Source: Pirellula sp. (GTDB lineage Bacteria > Planctomycetota > Planctomycetia > Pirellulales > Pirellulaceae). From it: DNA of 64,000 nt. This document shows, piece after piece, positions 17,936 to 64,000 of the stretch (position 1 is the first letter of the stretch; each line of letters begins with the position of its first letter). Where the stretch lies: positions 1 to 64,000 of the forward strand of contig JAJTFB010000015.1 in the NCBI GenBank assembly GCA_021300015.1, in the 5' to 3' direction. The position numbers and the translations under genes are program-made. The notes under the pieces were generated by a model. It was not told where the DNA came from. It ran no database searches and saw only the letters and a program-made list of their open reading frames with translations.

Positions 17936-19933
17936 TCAAACATGATGCTGTGAGGGACCTGTACCGACCTCTGGTTGGGTGAATTGGTCCGGCAAGAGCA
18001 CCTCGATCGTCTCGATCGAAACGGTCGCATGGTATTTGGTCATCACTTCCTCACGAAGGTACTTCAGGAGTCCCTCGCTGACCTGGAACGGGACGATCGT
18101 TTCCAATCGGATGCCGTTGGTCGTCACCCAAGTCCCGTCGTGGACATTGTGCCGACCGACGCCTCGCGAGGGGGTTACGGTAAATCCGCTGGCTCCACGG
18201 GCTAGGCATTCGCGTTGCAGGAGATCTTCGCAGTCCGGTTCGGCCACGATCGTGATGCGTCGCAGCCGAGCCAAGCCTCGCTTTCGGGCCGCCTCGGCAT
18301 GATCGCTCAGGGCTCGATGCTGTTCGAGGCCCACAATTTCTAGTTTCAAGCCTTCGGCTGTAAACTCGGATTGCGTCTCATGAAGTTTCTCCATCACCGT
18401 ATGATCGATGAGCTTGGCGTCCGACACATCGATGATCAGGTTCTTGCGTTGGACCAATCCGATGTGCTCGATTTGGCGTTTGAATGGGATCCAGTTGCTA
18501 AAGACAGCCGATTCGCTTGCCCGGATCTTGACCGTATCGGGCGAGACCTCCTCGATGTCCAGGTAGGCTTTGAAGAAAGATTTGATCGGAACACCGTTGA
18601 TCAGGTGAATCAGGAACTTGAGTCCGATCCCTGCGGCCACTCCGACCAAAAGGTCGGTAGCCAGCGTCACGATCAGGGTCGTAACGAAGATGACGAATTG
18701 CTCGCGTCCGACTTGGTACATGTGGGAGAACTCGCTAGGGTGTGCGAGCCGAAATCCGGTGTAGATCAGCATCGCTGCCAAAGCCGACTTGGGAATCAAG
18801 TGGAGGGTGGCGGGCAGGATTGCAACGCAGACCAACAGAAACACTCCGTGCCACATGTTGGCAAATCGGGTCCGAGCCCCGTTGTCGATATTGGCTTTGC
18901 TTCGGACGATCTCTGAGATCATCGGCAAGCCACCGAACATCGAAGCGCAGAGGTTCGCGCAGCCTACAGCCAACACGTCACGGTTCATGTCGGTCTTGCG
19001 CTTCCACGGGTCGATCGAGTCGATCGCTTTGGCGCTGAGGATCGACTCGAGACTGCCGATGATGAAAAACATCCCAATCCATTTCCATGCGACCCATTGC
19101 TTGAGGACGCCGAAATCCGGTAGGGTAATTTGATCGAGAATGCCAAACATTTTCGAAGGGAGCGGAACGAGATACTGGTCCCCCAATTTGTATTCGTGCC
19201 CGAAGAGCTTGTACTGGTGGTTCTCGAGCAGATTCAAATACAACCCGATCAGAACCGCTACGACCAAGACGATCAATTGCGGAGGGATCGCTGAGATGGC
19301 TCGGAGCTTCTTCTTGATCGTGGGCCATAGGGCCAGCAAACCGAGGCTCAAAATGCCGATCGATGCGATCGCAGGGTTGGCCTCGGAGATCATATGCGGA
19401 ATCTCGGCAAGCAGTTCCAAGGGCTCTTGCTTGTCAGTCGAAACCCCCAACGCATTGGGAATCTGCTTGGCGATGATGATCACACCGATGGCCGAAAGCA
19501 TGCCGTGTATGGCCGACTTGGGGAAGAACTCGCTGAGAATCCCGGCTCGAAACAACCCAAAGAGGATCTGCAAGACCGCAGCGACCACCCCGACGGCCAA
19601 GCAGGCTCGGTAGGCATCGAAGTCACCGGGGCCTTGGCCATCGGAAAAACCGTTTCCACCGAAGTCCTTGATGCAACCCAAGACGATCACGATCAAGCCC
19701 GCTGCGGGTCCTTTGATCGTCAACTCGGAATTGCTGATGAAGGTCGTCAAGATACTGCCGATGACGGCAGTCATGATGCCAGCCATGGCTGGATAGCCAC
19801 TGGCAAGCGAGATCGCCAAGCACAGGGGCAAAGCGATGATAAAAACCATAAGGCCTGAGATCAGGTCCTCTTTGAAATAGCGCACAAATCCCGCAGCGTT
19901 TCCGCGCGGCGTCTCAACATTGCTAACAGACAC
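17936..19933 (-). CDS. SulP anion/bicarbonate transporter with STAS and SbtB-like PII domain
   Basis: A 665-residue membrane protein. Residues about 10-430 form a SulP transporter core ([78 protein letters not shown]). A STAS-like domain follows at about 445-555 ([20 protein letters not shown]). Residues about 558-650 (DNA 17984-18262) then resemble a PII-like SbtB protein: [42 protein letters not shown] and EVLLPDQF. SbtB proteins gate the SbtA bicarbonate transporter, so the fusion suggests a bicarbonate or sulfate carrier with a built-in nucleotide sensor; this is inference. The upstream neighbour is a small secreted protein 85 bp away. Confidence 0.75.
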
Positions 19934-20018: not shown

Positions 20019-20336
20019 TTACGCCGGTGGAGGACGTTGCAATTGGGGTCTAAGGAACGCATCATCGACCCCGAGCCTTGGCCGGTCCGATAGGTGCAAA
20101 GTCCAAAACGAGACGGGCTGCCAAACTTGGCTGGCCTCATAGAAAACCGTTTCGCGGAACTCATCGTGCCGAAATTCTTCGGCGTCCGTTTCGACCTCTT
20201 CGAGCACCGTGGCTGCGACCAAAGAAGGATCCGAGGTTATCCATGGATCGAAGACACCGATTGCGGAGGAAAGCAGTAGCAATCCAACGATCAGCGCAGC
20301 GAATCTGCCTGTAGAAAAACAACGAATCATATTCAA
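20019..20336 (-). CDS. Small secreted or anchored hypothetical protein
   Basis: 105 residues, with a hydrophobic N-terminal segment (FAALIVGLLLLSSAIGVF, about residues 12-29) that is either a signal peptide or an anchor. The rest is acidic in the middle (LEEVETDAEEFRHDEF) and has no family I recognise. It lies 85 bp upstream of the SulP gene on the same strand, so co-transcription is possible. The 188 bp between it and the next upstream gene contain nothing I can name. The start is ATG 20336; a second Met two codons later is equally possible. Confidence 0.5.
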   Translation of the reverse strand: MNMIRCFSTGRFAALIVGLLLLSSAIGVFDPWITSDPSLVAATVLEEVETDAEEFRHDEFRETVFYEASQVWQPVSFWTLHLSDRPRLGVDDAFLRPQLQRPPPA

Positions 20337-59037: not shown

Positions 59038-60870
59038 TTATGCCATTCGAGCCATAAGAAGTTCGTGTTGGCATAGAAGTTCTTTGGGCATGGAGTGGTA
59101 GAGCTTCAAAAAGAACTGGTTTTGGCTCGTGATTTCGGCCAAGAAGTCCTCGCGGCGGAATTCCATGGCCGCATCGAATTGGTCGTGGGTAAAGCCCTCG
59201 AGTCCTTCGACGCAGAAGTCCTCCCAATCCGGGGTCCAACCGATGGGGGTTTCATGTCCTGGGATGCGTCCATGGCATCGTTTGACGATCCACTCGAGGA
59301 CGCGGATATTTTGTCGGAAGCCGGGCCAAAGGAAATTGCCTTGGGCGTCTTTTCGAAACCAATTGACGTGGAAGATTCTCGGGAGACGGCGGATATGTTT
59401 TCGCATATCGAGCCAGTGGGCAAAGTAGTCCCCCATGTTGTAGCCGCAGAACGGGAGCATCGCCATCGGATCGCGGCGGACGGTTCCGACCGTACCGCTT
59501 GCGGCCGCGGTCGTCTCGGAGCCTTGGGTGGCCCCGAGGAATACGCCGTGGGTCCAGTCGAAGGCTTGGAAGATCAGGGGCATGGTTGTCGGTCGACGTC
59601 CACCGAAGACGATCGCATCGATAGGCACCCCTTCGGGGTTTTGCCATTCGGGGTCGATATTGGGGCATTGGTCGGCCGGCGCGGTGAATCGGGAGTTGGC
59701 ATGGGCGGCGAGTCGACCCGACTGCGGGGTCCAGTCCTGCCCGGTCCAATCGATCAGATGGCTCGGTGGGGCCGAGAGGCCTTCCCACCACACGCCGTTT
59801 TGGTCCGTTAGAGCGACGTTGGTGAAGATCGTATTTTTCGACAAAGCGTGCATCGCATTTGGGTTGGATTGCCAGGAGGTACCCGGCGCGACGCCGAAGA
59901 ACCCGGTCTCGGGGTTGATCGCATGGAGTTTGCCTGACTTGCCAGGCCAGAGCCAAGCGATATCGTCTCCGACGAGGGTGGTTTTCCAGCCGGCCTTTTG
60001 GTAGTCCTCCGGAGGCGTGATCATCGCCAAGTTGGTTTTGCCGCAGGAGCTAGGGAAGGCCGCCGTGAGATAGGTTTTGACCCCATCGGGGCTTTCGAGT
60101 CCCATGATGAGCATATGTTCTGCCATCCAACCGTGATCTCGGGCGATGGTGCTGGCGATCCGCAATGCGACGCATTTTTTACCGAGCAGAGCATTGCCGC
60201 CGTACCCGCTCCCGAAGGACCAAACCTCGCGGGTCTCGGGGAAGTGGACGATGTACTTTTCATCGTTGCAGGGCCAAGCCGAATCGGATTGGCCTTTGGC
60301 AAGCGGAGCACCGACACTGTGCAAGCAGGGGATAAACGCTCCGTGAGCACCGAGCTTGCGGAATACTTTTTGCCCCATGTGGCACATGATCTTCATGCTG
60401 ACGACGACATAGGGCGAGTCGGTCAGTTCGACTCCTACAAGTGCCAACGGACTATCGATCGGTCCCATGCAAAACGGGACGACATACATCGTCCGTCCTT
60501 GCATGGAACCTTGGAATTTGTCCCTGAGAAGCGCTTTCATTTTTTCCGGATGTCGCCAATGGTTCGTCGGACCGGCGTCGGATTCTCGAAGCGAGCAGAT
60601 GAAGGTACGGTCTTCGACGCGGGCAGTATCGGAAGGATGGCTGCGGGCCAAGAACGAGTTTGGATGCAGCTTCGGGTCGAGCCGAATCAGAGTCTTGGAC
60701 TCGACAAGTTGGTCCGTCAGCGCGTCCCATTCCTGATCGCTGCCATCGCACAGGACGATGCGGTCGGGTTGGCACACAACGGCCATCTTGCGGATCCACT
60801 TCTCAAGCGCGACGTTGGGGCAATCGAAGGGCAGTTTTTCAAATTCGTTGGTGTTCATGTTGGCATTCAT
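59038..60870 (-). CDS. pckG: Phosphoenolpyruvate carboxykinase (GTP)
   Basis: 610 residues, the expected length for the GTP-dependent form. P-loop-like kinase motif [11 protein letters not shown], the metal site GDDIAWLW, the substrate region [13 protein letters not shown], and [22 protein letters not shown] are intact. It converts oxaloacetate to phosphoenolpyruvate, the entry to gluconeogenesis. ATG 60870 is chosen; the reading frame extends to 60963 without family similarity. No paired metabolic gene is adjacent. Confidence 0.93.
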
Positions 60871-61101
60871 TCTTTCAGATCGGCGGATCGGACCGTTCGG
60901 AGTCTCATGAGGAATTCTAACGGTAGCGAAAACTGGAACGCTTGAGAATGCGAGCCGCAGCAAAGCCCTGGCGGATTTCGAAAATCGGCGGATTTCCGAC
61001 TCGGTTCGATCGCTTAACGAAATGTTATCTGTGAGTCTTTAAGCAATAACTCCGAATCCGAGTTTCCGCCATCGCAGTAGACGTCCTATAATCGATCCGG
61101 C
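60871..61101. other. Divergent intergenic region
   Basis: About 230 bp between the starts of pckG (minus) and dabA (plus), which must hold the promoters of both. It contains TATAAT-like TCCTATAATCG at about 61084-61094, close upstream of the dabA start, with no confident -35 box. No gene seen. Confidence 0.45.
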
Positions 61102-64000
61102 GTGGAAGACCATCCCGGACCCAACACGTGCCGCAATACTGAAGAAACAAAATTGGATACCAAAACGTCAGCCTTCTCGCCCGAGCAGGTTCAACATGCC
61201 ATCGAGCATGCGATCCACTATCTGCCCTCTCAAGGTCCGATTGCGGTGTTTGTTCACCACAACACGTTGCACGCCTTTGAGCATCTACCGTTTGAATTAG
61301 CGGTTATCGAAGGCTGGAAAAAATACGGCGCGGAGCCTTATCTGTCTGAGGATCGATACCGCCATGAGTTACTTCGAGGACGCATCGCACGCGAAGATAT
61401 CGAGCAGGTTCTAGCCAAGGACTTGGGCCAGCGCGCCGAGGAACCGATCGTGCTTGGCACGACGCGGTATGAGCTTCGATTGGCCATGCTGATCCACCCG
61501 ATTCGAAATGCTCCGGTGGAGGAACTCCGGTGGTTCATCGCCGAGACCAAAGCCCTTAGGGAGTTCCGCGAGGATGTATCCCCTAACGTTGAATCGAGGG
61601 TCCTGCGTTCCGTACAGGAATGGATGGAGCGGAATTCGAAAGTCACACAGCAACTCACACAGCAACTCACATTGGGGTCCAAAAGCGAGGATCCGACGGC
61701 GGCTTCCTCTCCAGAGCAATGGACAGCCTGGACATTGGCATGGCTGCACCGAGTCTGCATCAAGGGCGCATCGCTCGTCGGCGAAGTTCTCAACGATGTT
61801 CTCAAAGACGCGATCCCGGTCCGTCGCCATCGGGATATCGTGCTGGGCTCGCACGGCATCGATTGCGATGTGTGTGTCAACGAGCAATTGATTCGATTTT
61901 TGGGCAGCGCGACCGACCAAGGCTTTGCGCAATGGGGACTGCCTGATCGGGATCGACCCTTGTTCGAGCTGTTTCAAGAGCTCTACGGCGTACGCTCGAT
62001 TTTTCAGCCAGGTTGGCTCAAGGAGCTTTCGGATCTGATCGCACAGGACCGTGCATCGGATCGAAGTTCGATCGAGTCGATCGTCCACTCTTTGGAATCG
62101 CTTGGATTGCGGGAGTATGGACTCGATGATTTCATCGATAGCACCTTGCTGAGCTTGCCGGGTTGGACCGGAATGATTTGGCAACTCGAGACCAACGCCG
62201 AATGGACCCCTCGCCCCTTGCGCGCCGGTTCGCTTCAAGACTACCTTGCAATCCGACTTCTGCTCGACCGCGCCAGTCTCCGCTCGGCCCTGGGGCAAAT
62301 CGCGGAAATCGAGGACCAGCCGTCGCTCCTGCAGGGGAGTTTGTCGATGGAGCGATTGGCTCAGGTCCTTGCGTTTCATCAAAGACGAAATGTTCGCCAG
62401 ACCGTAGAGCAGCGAGCGTTTGTCCTTTTTCAGGTCGCTCAACTATTGGGTTGGGCTCCCAACGAACTCGAGTCCCTCTCGGCCACCGAGTGGCAGAGCC
62501 TGATGGACGAGATCAGCCACTGCGGGACCATGGAACGACGCCGTTTGCTCCACCTTGCTTACGAACGGCATTACCGCAACGAAGCCCTCGATGCGATCGC
62601 ATCGCAACCTGCCCCCGTTCCTAGTGCAATGCCTGCAAAGGCTCCTGGGCCGATCTCGTTCCAACTCATCACGTGCATCGACGACCGAGAGGAGTCCTTT
62701 CGGCGTATCCTCGAGGAGATCGACCCGGCGATCGAGACGTTTGGAGCCGCAGGTTTTTTTTCCGTACCGATGTACTTTCGTTCCAGTTCCGATGCTCACT
62801 ACATCCCGCTCTGTCCGGTCGTGATCAAACCCAAACACTTCGTCGACGAGATCGGGCAACTGTCCCAACAAGAGCTTCAAAGGCGGCAGGCCGAAGCCAG
62901 GCGGGTCCTCGGCCACGCCTCGCATCGTCTGCACATGGGGAGTCGATCGTTGGCTGCAGGAACTCTCACGAGCCTGCTCGGTTCCCTGGCCAGCCTTCCG
63001 ATGGTCGCTCGCGTGCTCGCTCCTCGGCTGACGTCCCGCATCCGCGAGTTGGTCGCCAAGGTGGTAAAGCCCAGCCAAGCGACATTGCTTCTTATCGAAA
63101 GGATCGTGCCCGAGATGAGCATCGAGTCGGCTGCATCGGAGTCGGCTGCAGCGGAGTCGGCTCAGCGTCGCGAAGCGAAGCTCGATCAGGAAGCGAAGCT
63201 CAATCAGGGCTTTACGCTCGAGGAGATGGCCAACATGGTCGAGCGCCTTTTAGGGGATCTGGGACTCCATCGCTTTGCACGCTTGGTATTTATTCTGGGA
63301 CATGGTTCCTCGAGTTTGAACAATCCCCACGAGTCGGCTTATAACTGCGGGGCATGCGGGGGAGGGCGAGGCGGCCCGAACGCTCGCGCGTTTGCGATGA
63401 TGGCCAACGACTATCGGGTTCGTAAAATCCTCCAATCGCGCGGTTTGGAAATTCCCGAATCGACTTGTTTTGTCGGCGGGTATCACAACACATGCACCGA
63501 TTCGGTCGAGTTTTTTGACATCGACCGTTTGGCACCGAGTTGCCATATGGACTTTTTGCAAGCTCAATCTCTGATCGATCAGGCTCGTGAGCGCAACGCC
63601 TCGGAAAGGAGCCGTCGATTCACTTCGGCTTCCTTGGGGCTCAAGCCTCCCGAGGCGCTCAAGCATGTCGAGGCCCGCGCGGAGGATTTGGCGCAAGCCC
63701 GTCCGGAGTACAACCATGCGAGCAACGCGGTCTGCTTTGTCGGGCGGCGATTGCGGACCCGGGGGTTGTTCATGGATCGCCGATCCTTTTTGACGTCGTA
63801 CGACCCTACGAGGGATGGGCCCGGCTCGGAGATTCTCACGAGGATCCTTCAAGCGGTCATTCCGGTGTGCGCTGGGATCTCCTTGGAGTATTACTTTTCG
63901 ACCGTCGACAACGCGGTTTATGGATGCGGTTCGAAGTTGCCGCACAACATCACCTCGCTTTTGGGGGTCATGGAGGGTGCTGCGAGCGACTTGAGGACGG
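61102..64000 (+). CDS. dabA: DabA (DUF2309) inorganic carbon transporter subunit, 3' truncated
   Basis: About 966 codons without a stop, running off the window. The N-terminus shows PIAVFVHHNTLHAFEHLPF, the family start. The beta-carbonic-anhydrase-like zinc site can be traced: Cys and Asp in ITCIDDREESF and, later, His and Cys in LGHGSSSLNNPHESAYNCGACGGG. DabA works with the proton-driven membrane protein DabB to hydrate and trap CO2 as bicarbonate. No dabB is upstream (pckG is); it may lie beyond the end. GTG 61102 gives the longest start; TTG 61153 is also possible, as neither has a strong ribosome binding site. Confidence 0.88.
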   Translation, partial: MEDHPGPNTCRNTEETKLDTKTSAFSPEQVQHAIEHAIHYLPSQGPIAVFVHHNTLHAFEHLPFELAVIEGWKKYGAEPYLSEDRYRHELLRGRIAREDIEQVLAKDLGQRAEEPIVLGTTRYELRLAMLIHPIRNAPVEELRWFIAETKALREFREDVSPNVESRVLRSVQEWMERNSKVTQQLTQQLTLGSKSEDPTAASSPEQWTAWTLAWLHRVCIKGASLVGEVLNDVLKDAIPVRRHRDIVLGSHGIDCDVCVNEQLIRFLGSATDQGFAQWGLPDRDRPLFELFQELYGVRSIFQPGWLKELSDLIAQDRASDRSSIESIVHSLESLGLREYGLDDFIDSTLLSLPGWTGMIWQLETNAEWTPRPLRAGSLQDYLAIRLLLDRASLRSALGQIAEIEDQPSLLQGSLSMERLAQVLAFHQRRNVRQTVEQRAFVLFQVAQLLGWAPNELESLSATEWQSLMDEISHCGTMERRRLLHLAYERHYRNEALDAIASQPAPVPSAMPAKAPGPISFQLITCIDDREESFRRILEEIDPAIETFGAAGFFSVPMYFRSSSDAHYIPLCPVVIKPKHFVDEIGQLSQQELQRRQAEARRVLGHASHRLHMGSRSLAAGTLTSLLGSLASLPMVARVLAPRLTSRIRELVAKVVKPSQATLLLIERIVPEMSIESAASESAAAESAQRREAKLDQEAKLNQGFTLEEMANMVERLLGDLGLHRFARLVFILGHGSSSLNNPHESAYNCGACGGGRGGPNARAFAMMANDYRVRKILQSRGLEIPESTCFVGGYHNTCTDSVEFFDIDRLAPSCHMDFLQAQSLIDQARERNASERSRRFTSASLGLKPPEALKHVEARAEDLAQARPEYNHASNAVCFVGRRLRTRGLFMDRRSFLTSYDPTRDGPGSEILTRILQAVIPVCAGISLEYYFSTVDNAVYGCGSKLPHNITSLLGVMEGAASDLRT

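Follow-up and report, generated by a model that had tools for sequence, protein, structure and literature searches.

SulP is a broad family of anion carriers. Fusions of SulP carriers to carbonic anhydrase were reportedly noted by Felce and Saier in 2004; to our knowledge the SulP carrier BicA has no PII domain, and we know of no discussion of the Planctomycetes in connection with the SulP, SbtB or DAB inorganic-carbon systems. SulP-carbonic anhydrase fusions are in the published record (PMC6458275), and BicA is described in a 2026 review as a dimer that interacts with unknown regulatory proteins (PMC13159521). PII-type control of carriers by separate trimeric pairs is known from SbtA-SbtB, beside which AmtB-GlnK is named; SbtA and SbtB are both trimers, and when AMP-bound SbtB pushes its T-loop into the carrier, SbtA is inward-open (PMC8352866). 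The R43xxR46 pair in the SbtB T-loop grips the outer phosphates of ATP or ADP and is required for apyrase activity (PMC10117731), and a C-terminal CGPxGC R-loop is kept in only some SbtB proteins (PMC8352866). For the DAB proteins a role as energy-coupled carbonic anhydrases has been put forward (PMC8438413).

The protein described here resembles BicA in its SulP fold, its putative C-terminal STAS-like domain and its proposed substrate, bicarbonate. It resembles the SbtA-SbtB pair in having a carrier and an SbtB-like PII domain, although there the carrier is SbtA, Na+-dependent for bicarbonate, and its PII-like regulator is a separate protein, whereas here the carrier is a SulP protein and the domain is covalently attached. 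Like the SulP-carbonic anhydrase fusions (one of which, L002, with a Pro_CA match of 119.4 bits, is also encoded by this genome) it is a SulP protein with a carbon-related C-terminal domain, catalytic there and a PII domain here. The DAB system (DabA/DabB), a set of separate proteins that here includes two ND5-like genes, is its operon partner in many relatives. Within the window (the whole stretch of 64,000 nucleotides that was analysed) the gene and its parts lie as follows:

17936..19933, minus strand: SulP-STAS-PII fusion gene, 665 aa, GTG start, stop codon included
18677..19876, minus strand: SulP (SLC26) transmembrane domain, Pfam Sulfate_transp, residues 20-419
18311..18565, minus strand: STAS-like domain, residues ~457-541 in the AlphaFold model (Pfam span 463-537)
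17996..18262, minus strand: SbtB-like PII domain, residues 558-646, from Pfam, profile search, model and fold searches
18122..18163, minus strand: T-loop region, residues ~591-604, starting GVGRHNVH, from the inter-strand loop of the model, profile alignment and motif comparison

The initial annotation had read this frame, for which it gave no strand, as a SulP core followed by a STAS-like and a PII domain, and Pfam and AlphaFold agree on the SulP and PII parts of that architecture. The Sulfate_transp match (210.7 bits against a cut-off of 23.2) places the protein in the SulP/SLC26 family, and SLC26 structures head the fold search with the full-length model (pLDDT 82.7, pTM 0.78). The STAS assignment is weak, with 16.4 bits at residues 463-537 (under the Pfam cut-off of 22.6), and the strand and helix pattern of the model is compatible with it. 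The SbtB motifs that had been recognised by eye at residues ~558-650 are all present in the order given, and Pfam matches P-II at residues 558-646 in the whole protein (40.3 bits, cut-off 25, E = 4.3e-10); the score rises to 44.8 bits when only the C-terminal 116 aa are searched. A search of the C-terminus against NCBIfam gave no PII-family match.

Structure prediction of the C-terminus and comparison with SbtB had been set beforehand as the test of the assignment, and the outcome was a confident PII fold that matched SbtB. The AlphaFold model of residues 541-665 (46 sequences) has a pLDDT of 84.4, with core block means of 91-97 and a T-loop mean of 77, and its strand-helix-strand-strand-helix-strand succession is the PII order, so the C-terminus of the fusion protein is predicted to have a PII fold. 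Foldseek placed 2cz4 (TTHA0516 of Thermus thermophilus, a putative PII-like protein) first at 5.3e-10, then SbtB (6mm2, 1.9e-8) and CPII, and VIA-align gave Z scores of 15.9 for 2cz4 (92 residues, 1.9 A), 15.3 for CPII and 14.0 for SbtB; by fold alone, then, CPII is at least as close as SbtB. In sequence searches of the PDB the C-terminus by itself found TTHA0516 at 4.4e-12 and SbtB at 0.48, and a profile built from 46 fused domains that bear the motifs found TTHA0516 at 4.6e-23, SbtB at 3.5e-10, canonical PII at 8.2e-7 at best and CPII at 0.023 and 0.073. CPII thus ranks lower by sequence and is tied with TTHA0516 by fold (15.3 vs 15.9). A canonical nitrogen PII identity was rejected, since it scores lower in the profile search than TTHA0516 and SbtB. 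Judged by the profile, the closest kin of the fused domain are in the SbtB/TTHA0516 group, ahead of canonical PII and CPII. Alignment A3, which underlies the PDB profile as well as the searches of genomes and the model of the domain, omits 17 of 62 fused domains (L064, L072, L075, L076, L080, L085, L090, L091, L092, L093, L096, L110, L084, L087, L094, L103 and L107); a second alignment (A4) omits 9 of 62. Sequence, Foldseek and VIA-align all point to TTHA0516 as the closest solved structure, and the length of its T-loop stretch is similar to that of the fused domains; it differs in being a free chain of 119 residues with its RxxR pair kept, whereas the fused domain is attached to SulP and, in the window, lacks the pair.

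The residues that SbtB uses at its binding site tell another part of the story. In a pattern reading of 63 fused domains, the window's included, 49 are readable at R43xxR46, of which 3 retain the pair and 46 have lost it, and the window's domain has histidine at both arginine places (GVGRHNVH in its T-loop region, against GEGSRNVR in Cyanobium SbtB). None of the 63 fused tails, the window's among them, has the cysteine R-loop (CGPxGC). The arginine directly after G-x-G is present in 45 of 49 readable fused domains. From G-x-G-x to the R/K-x-E/D of the next strand there are 14 residues in 36 of 47 fused domains; in Cyanobium SbtB the same stretch has 18, against 13 in TTHA0516 (counted from the profile alignment). 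A stricter core-motif pattern is missed by 15 of 62 fused tails, three of them (L094, L103, L107) narrowly. Among stand-alone proteins with a readable pair, R43xxR46 is kept in 9 of 9 outside the fused side of the PII tree (below) and in 0 of 8 on that side. The likeness to SbtB proposed in the initial annotation stands as kinship, in that the profile ranks SbtB above canonical PII and CPII, and does not extend to R43xxR46 and the R-loop; with both absent, ligand and mechanism may differ from those of SbtB, and the ligand and contact mode of the fused domain are probably unlike those of the cyanobacterial protein.

Orthology to BicA was tried and rejected (128.4 bits with the NCBIfam BicA model, whose cut-off is 880). 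A PDB sequence search gave prestin 78.6, SLC26Dg 78.1 and BicA 77.4 bits, so that BicA is no nearer than the others.

It had been suggested that SulP proteins with C-terminal PII domains be sought across the planctomycetes, and they proved plentiful: the best 80 of at least 580 relatives, taken from named records, include 62 fused proteins, 17 unfused SulP proteins that stop soon after the linker and one (L099) that is cut by a contig end. No separate PII gene was found beside an unfused SulP gene when ORFs of at least 40 aa in the 80 loci were searched with a profile of the 62 fused tails, and the sole extra match outside the SulP genes is one of 65 aa (E 6e-5) at a fused locus, L058. A check across the phylum, covering 246 genomes, yielded 19 with a match at E <= 1e-8, and 11 of these seem fused, judged by frame length alone (650-810 aa). 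Fusions also occur in metagenome-assembled genomes labelled Methylococcaceae (L046), Verrucomicrobia (L074) and Alphaproteobacteria (L103), the taxon being in each case the label of the assembly only.

A quick PII tree was made from 119 alignment columns of 75 domains; many of its forks are unresolved, and the first twelve of the A3 omissions listed above, L064 to L110, were left out as weak in motif. In it the 51 fused domains lie on one side of a branch with SH-aLRT 95, beside stand-alone proteins; the neighbours of the fused clade are planctomycete SbtB-like stand-alone proteins, most of them sbtA-linked. Since the fused domains form one clade in this tree, a single fusion event behind SulP-PII is likely, if not proven. 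On the SulP tree of 83 rows (64 fused, 17 unfused, 2 outgroup), also quick and with long branches, the fused label requires 9 changes, 7 of them forced by starred branches, and gain and loss are not separable on it; so many changes suggest that the PII domain is often dispensable. Repeated loss following one gain would fit the single PII clade, and transfer is also possible.

Where the domain is present in close relatives of the window it is under purifying selection. Against L034, L035 and L008 its dN/dS is 0.055, 0.018 and 0.052, close to that of the transmembrane part (0.040, 0.026 and 0.032); against the more distant L036/L037, where dS is ~1.6, the values are 0.19 for the PII part and 0.14 for the transmembrane part. 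L036 against L037 gives 0.30, a figure based on 4 changes and too few to use.

Among the best 80 of at least 580 relatives the gene order dabA-ND5-ND5-SulP recurs: 26 of the 62 fused loci have it, as do L099 and 5 of the 17 unfused loci, some contigs ending before these genes could appear. SulP precedes dabA at 5 further unfused loci of the same 80. An ND5-like gene lies directly upstream of SulP in 33 of 57 fused loci, L099 being counted as fused, and in 6 of 17 unfused loci (loci of the same 80 with at least 800 bases upstream). The 24 of 57 fused loci without it include the window's close relatives L034-L037, where no dab genes were found within the fetched stretch. Pfam confirmed dab-type neighbours in sampled genes; a Rhodopirellula baltica strain (L078) has the complete order, and the unfused SulP genes of L068, L069, L070, L077 and L081 lie in operons that keep dabA and ND5 without a PII domain. 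Unfused SulP genes before dabA were seen in metagenome-assembled genomes labelled Acidobacteria, Arenicellaceae and Gammaproteobacteria (L105, L112 and L113); at L105 Pfam recognises, besides DabA, the Mrp-type subunits MNHE, MnhB and an Oxidored_q2 protein, and at L112 and L113 homologues were identified by BLAST only. The contig that carries the window's fusion has dab genes too, as follows:

61102..64000, plus strand: dabA (ends at contig position 64302), Pfam DabA 746.8 bits, the one DabA match in the assembly
64309-65682 and 65610-67121 (contig positions): two ND5-like genes after dabA, Pfam Proton_antipo_M for both

This dabA is 41 kb from the fusion gene and on the opposite strand, so the fusion lies outside the dab operon; we infer a functional link between them from the relatives in which both are neighbours. 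(Beside dabA and divergent from it, at window 59038-60963 on the minus strand, is a gene for a GTP-type PEP carboxykinase.) At the level of genomes, a DabA search matched 198 of 297 in the class. Among the matches listed, DabA accompanies a fused frame of 600 aa or longer in 49 of 50 genomes, and 149 of the remaining 247 have it (Fisher p 6e-9, a value inflated by shared descent). Two frames, one of 407 aa in G299 and one of 328 aa in G305, both genomes with DabA, were omitted as partial, and the one fusion genome without a DabA match, G149, has weakly similar ND5-like ORFs nearby.

The fused-domain profile matches 128 of 297 genomes of the class at E <= 0.001, in frames some of which are 640-760 aa and many ~100-145 aa long; the weakest of these matches are probably canonical PII proteins. 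Twenty stand-alone loci were picked by hand from the profile matches (they are not a random sample): all 20 have the PII ORF, and the fetched stretch of 16 also includes an SbtA homologue, with Sbt_1 confirmed by Pfam in seven (L154, L157, L158, L162, L163, L167 and L171). No SbtA homologue was found in the fetched stretches of L153, L155, L161 and L164; the SbtB-like genes of L153 and L155 thus stand without one nearby, and a neighbour in L153 gives a weak Mg-chelatase match. At L165 (2796-6548) one SbtB-like gene is flanked by two SbtA homologues. The window's genome assembly (81% complete) has three other P-II matches and no SbtA match, so the window's domain, which is fused to SulP, is not a PII gene paired with sbtA as SbtB is. 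L173 (G240:C43, 1333-8818, minus strand) has the order dabA-ND5-ND5-sbtA-sbtB, assigned by BLAST against confirmed genes, and to judge from this order an SbtA-SbtB pair there takes the slot of SulP-PII.

Many relatives lie in an operon with the DAB carbon-uptake system, and the fusion is therefore probably a self-regulated bicarbonate carrier. The reading we prefer, with a probability of roughly two in three, is that this SulP/SLC26 protein carries anions, bicarbonate being the likeliest, and that the attached SbtB-like PII domain controls its activity. The initial annotation's idea of a carbon-uptake control unit is supported independently by the dabA-ND5-ND5-SulP order in relatives. Substrate, ligand and gating we infer as follows. 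The SulP part would move bicarbonate beside the DAB system, whose proposed activity is CO2 hydration coupled to energy; the PII domains would bind an adenine nucleotide or similar ligand, which would alter the short T-loop, and the changed T-loop could then act on the cytoplasmic side of the carrier or on its STAS domain. PII-like proteins are trimers and BicA is a dimer, which rules out for the fusion an arrangement copied directly from the SbtA-SbtB complex; its PII domains would need either to come together between SulP dimers or to function in some other oligomeric state. A more elaborate version, in which a single SbtB-like fusion gave the Planctomycetes a self-regulated bicarbonate carrier that partners DAB, PII assembly across SulP dimers switches carriers in clusters and ligand preference is unlike that of cyanobacterial SbtB, is tentative and, taken whole, somewhat doubtful.

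Other readings were weighed, and their odds overlap, one of them (regulation of DAB) being compatible with the preferred reading. Given the breadth of the SulP family, the carrier might move sulfate or another anion, with the PII domain reporting general energy or nitrogen state and the adjacency to dabA an accident of descent. The failure of BicA orthology, the lack of any special sequence nearness to BicA and the 41 kb between the window's fusion and dabA agree with this, but an accident sits poorly with the gene order of fused (26 of 62) and unfused (5 of 17) relatives (and SulP before dabA in 5 more unfused, in the best 80 of at least 580), with DabA in 49 of 50 fusion genomes (among the matches listed), with SbtA-SbtB in the same slot in L173 or with stand-alone kin near sbtA in 16 of 20 picked loci, and we think it unlikely. 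The PII domain might instead mainly regulate the neighbouring DAB complex (DabA and the ND5-like subunits), with SulP as membrane anchor or partner. The position of SulP-PII in relatives, immediately behind dabA and its two ND5-like genes, speaks for this; against it, five operons (L068, L069, L070, L077 and L081) keep those genes beside a SulP without PII, and the window's fusion is outside the dab operon, and we think it quite improbable. The purifying selection measured against the three nearest relatives tested (dN/dS 0.018-0.055) and the arginine after G-x-G in 45 of 49 readable domains argue against a domain that is a mere remnant, binding no ligand and serving assembly or stability only. 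The strict motif missing from 15 of 62 tails, the loss of R43xxR46 in 46 of 49 and the repeated loss or gain of the domain on the SulP tree are what such a remnant might leave, and we give it the least credence of all.

In the literature searched, most subscription journals not being covered by it, no description was found of a SulP-PII fusion or of a dabA-ND5-ND5-SulP operon. The parts are of known kinds; what appears new, as far as that search goes, is their combination and its place, in relatives, in a dab operon. The fusion ties together three inorganic-carbon systems, SulP, SbtB and DAB. If the preferred reading is true, a PII domain built into a SulP carrier offers a one-gene test of nucleotide gating of an SLC26-type protein, and the mismatch between dimeric BicA and trimeric PII-like proteins poses a clear structural question.

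A small ORF of 105 aa without a Pfam match lies upstream of the window's fusion gene (window 20019-20336, minus strand), and similar small ORFs, in frames of 140-166 aa, are upstream of the fusion in L034-L037. In L011 (G008:C97), a relative of the same genus, the PII and SulP parts are in different frames, reflecting either a broken gene or an assembly error. The otherwise near-identical genes of L036 (6001-7986) and L037 (3104-5089) have a dS of 0.64 in the STAS segment vs 0.02 in the transmembrane part, perhaps the result of recombination.
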